Of a DNA stretch of 64,000 bases, positions 9,475 to 11,893 are shown in pieces. The translations under genes and the position numbers were made by a program. Under the pieces are notes generated by a model. That model was given only the letters and a program-made list of their open reading frames with translations, made no database searches and had not been told where the DNA came from. Each line of letters starts with the position of its first letter. The stretch's first letter is position 1. The stretch spans positions 1-64,000 of the forward strand of contig CAKNLK010000011.1 of assembly GCA_930989535.1 (NCBI GenBank). The letters are read 5' to 3'. The DNA comes from an uncultured Clostridia bacterium (GTDB lineage Bacteria > Bacillota > Clostridia > Christensenellales > Borkfalkiaceae).

Positions 9475-10344
9475 ATGAAAAAGTTTTTGGCTGTGATTTG
9501 TTCGCTTGCGGTTCTCGCGGGCGGCATTGCGATGTTCGCAGGGTGCAACAGCAAAACGCCGATCGGTTTTGATATCGAGCTTGCGCAGGCTGTTGCCGAT
9601 AAAATCGGGGTAAAGCTCAGATGCGAAGAGATAAATTGGGATACGAAAGAGGCGGAATTGGAAAATCATAGCATCGATATGGCGTGGAACGGTTTTACTT
9701 ATACCGAAGCGCGTGACGAGGGCTATACCGATGAAGATGGCAATAAAATCGGCGGGTTGGACTTTTCTAACCTCTATATGAGGAACAGGCAGGTTGCCGT
9801 CGTCAAAAAGGAGAATGCGGAAAAATATTCGACGCTTGAAGCGATGAAAAATGCCCCTTCTTTTACGGCGGAAAGCGGTTCGGCAGGGTTTACGACGATA
9901 CAGGAAGTATTCGGGAAAACACCTACGGGCGTAGTGCGGCAGGTCAATGTTTTCACGGAAGTGACGGCGGGCACGAGCGAAATCGGCGTAATCGATGCGG
10001 TAATGGCCGGGTATTATATTACGGCGGAAACGGGCGCGTATCATGATTCGCTTGCGGTTGTCCAAATCGAGGGCGTGGAAGAGGAATACTATGCAATCGG
10101 TTTCCGCGAAGGGAGCAATCTTCCTGCAGCCTTTAACAATATTCTTGCAGGGCTTGTCGAGGACGGCACGATGGAAAGGATTGCGGAAAAGTACGGCTTG
10201 CAGGATGTAATCATGCCTGAAAATTTTACCGATTATGATGCAAACTACGCCTATCCTACGGACGGCGATTATCAGGAATTGATTAACGACGGTGAAATGG
10301 TGCTCGGATATACGATTTTTGCGCCGATGGCATATTTTGAATAA
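9475..10344 (+). CDS. Amino-acid ABC transporter substrate-binding lipoprotein, apparently circularly permuted
   Basis: A 289-residue SBP_bac_3 family lipoprotein. A signal peptide ends in lipobox FAGC with Cys24 as the lipidated residue. The mature chain begins directly with NSKTPIGFDIELAQAV, which in relatives follows the first beta strand. The segment that normally opens the fold, DYQELINDGEMVLGYTIFAP plus MAYFE, is instead the last 25 residues before the stop. Joining the C-terminal YFE to NSKTPIGFDIEL recreates the canonical order without a gap. Core motifs such as EINWDTKEAEL, AWNGFTYTEAR and AESGSAG are in their usual order. The gene leads the operon with permease, ATPase and a YerC-like regulator. 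Ligand is probably a polar amino acid. Confidence 0.88.
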   Translation: MKKFLAVICSLAVLAGGIAMFAGCNSKTPIGFDIELAQAVADKIGVKLRCEEINWDTKEAELENHSIDMAWNGFTYTEARDEGYTDEDGNKIGGLDFSNLYMRNRQVAVVKKENAEKYSTLEAMKNAPSFTAESGSAGFTTIQEVFGKTPTGVVRQVNVFTEVTAGTSEIGVIDAVMAGYYITAETGAYHDSLAVVQIEGVEEEYYAIGFREGSNLPAAFNNILAGLVEDGTMERIAEKYGLQDVIMPENFTDYDANYAYPTDGDYQELINDGEMVLGYTIFAPMAYFE

Positions 10345-10362: not shown

Positions 10363-11013
10363 ATGTTTTTTGGAATAATCGGCGAATTGGCGGTAGGTTT
10401 TCTTACCACGCTTGAGCTGTTCGCTCTGACGCTGGTATTTGCTCTGCCGCTCGGGCTTTTGGTTTCGCTGTGTACAATGTCAAAATTCGCGCCGCTGCGC
10501 GTTCTGTTCAAAGTAATCGTGTGGGTGGTGCGCGGAACGCCGCTTATGTTGCAGTTGTTGGTCATTTTCTATGGCCCGGGGCTGATTGGCCTGCCGCCCT
10601 TGACCAACCGTTTTTTAGCGGCTGTCATCGCCTTTGTAATCAATTACGCCTGCTACTTTTCGGAAATTTACCGCGGCGGCATCGAGAGTATTTCCAAGGG
10701 GCAGTACGAGGCGGGGCAGGTGCTCGGCATGACGCGCTCGCAGATTTTCTTTAAAGTCGTATTGTTGCAGGTCGTCAAGCGTATCCTCGCGCCGATGAGC
10801 AACGAGGTGATGACGCTCGTCAAGGATACCTCTCTTGCCAACACGATTGGTGTCATTGAGATTTTGCGCGTTGCGCAGTCTATCAATGCGTACTATGCCG
10901 TCAATATCATCATTCCCGTGCTCTACGCAGGCTTGTTCTACCTCGCCTTCATCGGCATACTGACGATTGTTTTCGGCAGGCTGGAAAAGAAACTCAATTA
11001 TTTCAAGGTATAA
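10363..11013 (+). CDS. Amino-acid ABC transporter permease
   Basis: 216 residues of the HisM/GlnP membrane-protein family with about five helices. The EAA loop that docks on the ATPase is recognisable as SKGQYEAGQVLGMTRSQIFF. It is the single permease gene of the operon, so it most likely forms a homodimer. An AGGAAG site precedes the ATG, 18 bases after the binding-protein stop. Confidence 0.95.
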   Translation: MFFGIIGELAVGFLTTLELFALTLVFALPLGLLVSLCTMSKFAPLRVLFKVIVWVVRGTPLMLQLLVIFYGPGLIGLPPLTNRFLAAVIAFVINYACYFSEIYRGGIESISKGQYEAGQVLGMTRSQIFFKVVLLQVVKRILAPMSNEVMTLVKDTSLANTIGVIEILRVAQSINAYYAVNIIIPVLYAGLFYLAFIGILTIVFGRLEKKLNYFKV

Positions 11014-11017
11014 GCGT

Positions 11018-11893
<876 letters not shown>

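Follow-up and report, generated by a model that had tools for sequence, protein, structure and literature searches.

Circularly permuted order in an SBP_bac_3 lipoprotein of an uncultured Clostridia bacterium, and four cut points among its homologues

Is a binding protein whose opening segment stands at the end of the chain a natural circular permutation, an error of assembly, or a protein that has lost its opener and carries some other tail? The question is raised by a plus-strand open reading frame (ORF) at positions 9475–10344 of the stretch of DNA analysed here (64,000 nucleotides from an uncultured Clostridia bacterium; hereafter the window). The ORF encodes a lipoprotein of 289 residues, an amino-acid-binding protein of the SBP_bac_3 family. 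In its translation, NSKTPIGFDIEL follows directly after Cys24 and NDGEMVLGYTIFAPMAYFE stands right before the stop codon. A sequence-only reading had proposed that the opener of the canonical fold was displaced to the C-terminal end of this ORF; the translation, the PF00497 match and the two profile searches described below bear this out.

Segment order and predicted fold of the window protein

All parts of the gene lie on the plus strand. The lipoprotein signal peptide (residues 1–23; 9475–9543) was placed from the translation and ends in FAGC, which we take to be a lipobox-like sequence; Cys24 (9544–9546) is the predicted lipid anchor. The SBP core (residues 28–246; 9556–10212) runs from TPIGFDIEL to the canonical C-terminal end, as placed by Pfam, by the doubled profile and by PDB 4ohn, the best solved relative by sequence (residues 29–247, 1e-22). 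It is followed by a linker that connects the former C-terminus with the former N-terminus (residues ~247–263; 10213–10263), the borders of which are approximate and were taken from alignment A1 and a comparison of tails, and by the displaced opener, a helix and the first strand (residues 264–289; 10264–10341), as delimited by the AlphaFold2 (AF2) elements and the opener profile. A reading of the gene as a pseudogene was considered and set aside.

Genes for an ABC importer permease (BPD_transp_1, Pfam 3.7e-19; 10363–11013) and an ABC importer ATPase (ABC_tran, Pfam 4.8e-35; 11018–11893) lie adjacent on the same strand, as is expected of a polar amino acid ABC importer. By eye, the window ATPase and that of the related locus L002 (4626–5873) contain an insertion rich in lysine and glutamate; ATPase lengths are 291 residues in the window, 415 in L002 and 260 in L005.

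Residues 26–241 were matched by Pfam to positions 18–130 of the 132 positions of PF00497 with 79 bits (gathering score 26.4), which places the protein in the family; the match begins at position 18, so the start of the profile is missing at the N-terminus. The canonical linear order of PF00497 was not found, and the window protein is a permuted homologue rather than a canonical member. When searched with an opener profile (canonical columns 1–27), the last 45 residues scored 20.8 bits and the first 70 residues −2.5 bits. This score was reached by none of 5000 shuffles of the tail (highest noted, 19.9 in one shuffle; 99.9th percentile, 9.9), and GYTIFAPMAY in the tail corresponds to GITLFAPMNY in the opener of the canonical protein L005. 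The tail thus reads as an opener, and the unrelated C-terminal linker that the sequence-only reading had named as evidence against itself was not what was found.

A profile of 38 canonical relatives (236 states) was doubled end to end, and the window protein aligned to it without a break: the alignment begins at state 30, passes the join and finishes at state 26 of the second copy (8e-57). The earlier statement that joining end to start leaves no gap does not stand, for alignment A1, as we read it, shows an added linker of ~17 residues. The word AGCAAAA, which is shared by the DNA after the stop codon and the junction after Cys24 and had been read as a hint of an ancestral tandem copy, lost its force: the final base of the stop codon is already part of the match, 164 of 5000 shuffles gave a common word of that length, and the match is absent from the relatives L010, L011 and L012. 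Given this shuffle frequency and the absence from the three relatives checked, the match is probably due to chance.

Structure prediction, which had been suggested as a check, was carried out with AF2 on the mature window protein by using an alignment of nine rows that included its own permuted relatives. The resulting model (pLDDT 87.8, pTM 0.82) is a predicted two-lobed type II binding-protein fold whose last elements are a helix (241–249) and a strand (251–256; mature numbering). Ten-residue blocks gave pLDDT values of 94 for the displaced helix and 78 for the displaced strand, and the last six residues 56. The helix–strand pair placed last here comes first in the canonical control L005 (helix 9–16, strand 18–23; pLDDT 90.1 in the best model and 68.5–85.2 in the other four) and is followed there by a broadly matching series of elements, the two models being compared by the order of their elements, not by superposition. 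A Foldseek search with the window model returned 3hv1 as the best match (7.5e-14, TM 0.60), together with 2pvu and 4ohn, all polar amino-acid-binding proteins; none of the 50 matches listed was a sugar-binding protein by description.

Conservation of the order and further cut points

The window family survey gave a match in 143 of 398 genomes, with one match only in the window's own genome. The window order was found in 12 genomes of different species, the 11 others (G038, G026, G012, G023, G022, G034, G007, G032, G143, G241 and G237) encoding proteins 48–74% identical to that of the window over nearly the whole length; these carriers are draft genomes, and three of the records with this order (L002, L003 and L004) read as metagenome bins. 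Mean pairwise identity among the 12 proteins was 0.68 in the opener columns (9–26) and 0.58 in columns 29–236, and the tail was conserved in all 12 of the A1 rows printed (A1 and A2 are lineages of the window order, type A). Values of dN/dS were ~0.09–0.13 in the three least saturated of six pairs, one pair being from lineage A2.

A canonical SBP gene occupies the syntenic slot of the permuted gene in another species of the same genus (L211). Identities between L211 and the window were 93% for a phosphoketolase, 37% for the SBP, 60% for the permease and 82% for the ATPase, then 90% for an AMP-binding enzyme and 88% for a thiamine-dependent oxidoreductase-like protein (families from Pfam); we take the last two to be paaK and iorA. 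Permuted and canonical versions thus share one chromosomal locus within one genus. A natural permutation, with the lipid anchor brought to a new point of the fold, had been supposed from the sequence; it is supported by the genomes of the 11 other species, by the AF2 model against its control and by this syntenic canonical gene.

The other two answers to the opening question fare poorly by comparison with these data. A tandem pair of canonical SBP genes collapsed during assembly could read as one permuted gene, and both the tandem SBP genes of relatives and the draft state of the carrier genomes give this idea some footing; recurrence in 12 species' genomes, the conserved tail, the low dN/dS and the single match in the window's genome speak against it. 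Recurrence in independent genomes in particular makes a collapsed copy unlikely, and we hold an assembly artefact to be extremely improbable. Loss of the opener, with an unrelated or convergent segment as the tail, draws on the one shuffle that scored close to the tail, on the low confidence of the last modelled residues and on the TpMglB-2 paper (PMC4990184), whose authors allowed for an origin of that protein's permuted part in another gene. Against it stand the opener-like sequence of the window tail, its opener-like predicted secondary structure and its conservation in the A1 rows, which leave this explanation highly improbable.

Very probably, then, the window protein is a type II SBP_bac_3 protein in naturally permuted circular order that serves a polar-amino-acid ABC importer and that would have arisen by duplication, fusion and trimming; order, conservation, predicted fold and gene neighbourhood are the observed parts of this explanation. 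The old N-terminal helix and first strand are now C-terminal, and the N-terminus with its predicted lipid anchor lies just before GFDIEL. Gene neighbourhood, predicted fold and low dN/dS indicate that the protein is probably functional. By analogy with its canonical relatives, its most likely predicted role is to capture an amino acid by closure of the two lobes and to deliver it to the permease. No ligand was assigned by NCBIfam, all seven models that matched scoring below their cut-offs (best, 55.4 against 256.35).

The survey of homologues that had been suggested for the window order returned this order and three further cut points. ORFs of the fetched loci were aligned to the doubled profile, on which canonical proteins span approximately state 1 to state 236; permuted proteins end and start at states ~26/28 (type A), ~103/104–118 (type D), ~132/138 (type B) and ~174/180 (type C). 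C-terminal end states fell at 25–26 in 15 of 15 type A rows, at 129–134 in 42 of 42 type B rows, at 174–176 in 16 of 16 type C rows and at 102–103 in seven of eight type D rows, the remaining one being at 96. L132, which carries an insertion and has a profile end state of 114, outside the D range, was assigned to type D by eye, and L180 and L182 (D) were added after the end states had been counted. Most permuted proteins cover the circle about once, and five divergent tandem type B copies match only 176–187 of the 236 states. Overlaps of start and end amount to 17 states or fewer, and the five largest (13–17; L056, L016/L074, L113 and L120) begin in the signal-peptide region.

A permuted SBP is encoded in 80 of the 160 genomes represented among the fetched loci (A, 15; B, 38; C, 16; D, 11), and the carriers span 14 family groups of the family, order, class and phylum samples; of the 143 matching genomes of the family survey, 72 were fetched, 38 of them with a permuted SBP. 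These counts are not frequencies, because loci were picked best match first or for their segment order. Permease and ATPase genes are both present on the same strand in 117 of the 120 locus rows with a permuted SBP and in 83 of the 91 with a canonical one, some loci overlapping and being counted twice. The lipobox pattern is present in 14 of 15 type A rows. From the cysteine to the first matched residue, type A proteins have 0–4 residues (median 3; 14 of 15 rows) and canonical proteins a median of 8.5 (54 of 60 rows), so that in type A the anchor seems to lie immediately next to the fold.

Origin and number of permutation events

In the mechanism proposed here, a tandem duplication of the SBP gene would come first; copy 1 would then be fused in frame to a copy 2 without a second signal peptide, and in a last step copy 1 would be trimmed from its front, with the signal peptide retained, and copy 2 from its back. 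Further rounds of this process might have produced the four cut points across the phylum, including the apparent re-permutation of proteins already permuted. Tandem SBP genes were found at L005, L039, L048, L049, L096 and L204; the canonical SBP gene before the type D gene at L137/L166 was not counted as a tandem pair, since it lies behind another permease and ATPase. Locus L203 (G1487:C6, 2827–4411 in 0-based, reverse-complement coordinates, minus strand) encodes a protein of 528 residues that consists of two almost full SBP copies (80% identity over 227 residues) fused head to tail with no second signal peptide; it belongs to a distant lineage and is not an ancestor of type A. Among solved chains, the best match spanned the linker in 6h30 (B and D queries) and in 4q0c (BvgS; B query), as judged from 54 B matches and from the 60 of 80 D matches listed. 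We take 4q0c to have tandem domains. The fused double SBP, the tandem genes and the linker-spanning tandem-domain chains fit permutation by duplication, which is described in a review (PMC3320104).

From the fused double SBP and the tandem genes we infer an origin by duplication, fusion and trimming. Fission and fusion, or cut and paste, are recognised beside duplication in that review (PMC3320104), and the small overlaps given above would suit such a route, as would the fetched loci, among which partly trimmed intermediates were not seen. However, tandem SBP genes do exist, as does a double SBP in fused form, the solved chains that span the linker are tandem-domain proteins, and the only half-length ORFs seen (L064 and L065) both lie at contig ends; a route without duplication and trimming is therefore unlikely, if still a serious contender.

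Two side observations concern gene arrangement. L039 (G346) and L096 (G351) each have three consecutive SBP genes ahead of a single permease and ATPase; those of L039 are all type B, and at L096 two divergent type B genes are followed by a canonical one. At L160 (3371–4835, 0-based, plus strand) a canonical SBP and a permease share one ORF of 488 residues.

Whether the permutations go back to one event was approached with trees. The SBP tree was built from canonical-order alignments of 107 of the 145 classified rows, after removal of near-duplicates and of rows with fewer than 195 of 236 states (including the five divergent tandem type B copies). On it, 17 changes are required for the five states (minimum, 4), or 15 without six long rows (L007, the canonical copy of L049, L140, the upstream copy of L005, L124 and L126), which were likewise left out of the AU tests. 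One clade of this tree unites A2, most of B and C1. The permease tree (98 rows, 17 changes) agrees in part, again with A1 and A2 in different clades: A1 is one clade (SH-aLRT 99), and A2 lies inside a B/C1 clade (98); D labels were not significantly clustered on it, 88 of 500 shuffles being as low.

A single ancient permutation, inherited and transferred horizontally without repeated events, would account for the clade of A2, most of B and C1, and for the linker of ATD-x-SW type found in 3 of 15 A rows (those of A2, by inspection), 24 of 42 B rows and 6 of 16 C rows; nor was a single origin rejected for the two A2 rows (AU, p 0.50) or for type C once its rows within the B clade were set aside (ten rows, p 0.065). 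However, four distinct cut points, sharply different in orthologous genes, need more than one event, and a single clade was rejected for all permuted proteins together (p 2e-11) and for A (0.0076), C (7e-6) and D (7e-62); we regard one ancient event as very unlikely, even if a deeper tree might lower the count of events. A single B clade was rejected as well (3e-6), which is expected with A2 and C1 nested in B and is no sign of several B origins. Reversals or nested re-permutation could also yield the rejections.

The shared linker and the common clade mean that part of the variety traces to one fusion, and to judge from the sequences, A2, most of B and C1 appear to descend from it by a later shift of the cut point, that is, by re-permutation. 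L066 (A2) and L045 (B) have permeases 85% identical and SBP parts 65–69% identical, so this change of cut point between A2 and B is comparatively recent; its direction would be from B to A2 and C1, to judge by B being the commoner state in the clade. A more far-reaching account, which we consider likely, is that the cut point is mobile in evolution: duplication, fusion and trimming would have recurred at four preferred points, in place within the operon, with B re-rotated to A2 and C1, and relocation of the anchor has possibly been selected.

Known systems and annotation

One naturally permuted binding protein was in print among the papers found, namely TpMglB-2 (Tp0684) of Treponema pallidum, and the other permutation literature found dealt mostly with engineered permutants or was unrelated. 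Its description (PMC4990184) presents TpMglB-2 as a naturally permuted member of the "Type Ic / Cluster Bc" ligand-binding proteins, reports its structure and glucose binding, places relatives in Gram-positive bacteria, many of them from the gut, and raises the topology as a possible answer to membrane anchoring. Like TpMglB-2 as described there, the window protein is a lipid-anchored binding protein of an ABC importer with its N-terminal strands moved to the C-terminus (predicted for the window protein). TpMglB-2 has a type I sugar-binding fold and one permuted order, whereas the window family has the type II amino-acid fold and four cut points; the permuted part of TpMglB-2 is given as 13% identical to its canonical counterpart, whereas the displaced part of the window protein is clearly homologous. 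The window protein lies outside Type Ic, Pfam giving PF00497 only; the arrangement is alike, the membership is not.

Canonical SBP_bac_3 proteins (3hv1, 4ohn) share the Pfam family, the predicted fold and the neighbouring permease and ATPase with the window protein and differ from it in chain order and in where on the fold the lipid anchor lies. In the SBD1-SBD2 pair of GlnPQ (6h30), a C-half runs into the next N-half, as it does inside types B and D, but GlnPQ has two full domains, whereas the permuted SBPs are single domains, presumably cut from such an arrangement. The DNA methyltransferases, named in the review (PMC3320104) as a family with permutations and intermediates, likewise combine natural permutations in one family with a duplication model; they are enzymes of another fold, whereas the window family consists of exported lipoproteins in which the anchor point moves with the cut.

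No report of a natural SBP_bac_3 permutation was found in the open papers, which is weak evidence, most subscription journals lying outside the search. Natural permutation of a binding protein is already known from TpMglB-2; what surprises here is that it recurs at several cut points. One family here offers four cut points, canonical and permuted proteins at the same slot in one genus, and close pairs that differ in cut point (L066/L045). Such variety makes it testable how permutations arise and which loops tolerate them, and also whether docking to the permease depends on where the binding protein carries its membrane anchor. Annotation by profiles passes over the permuted proteins: SBP_bac_3 was reported by Pfam, with the order unflagged, in all four of the permuted proteins scanned (one per type).
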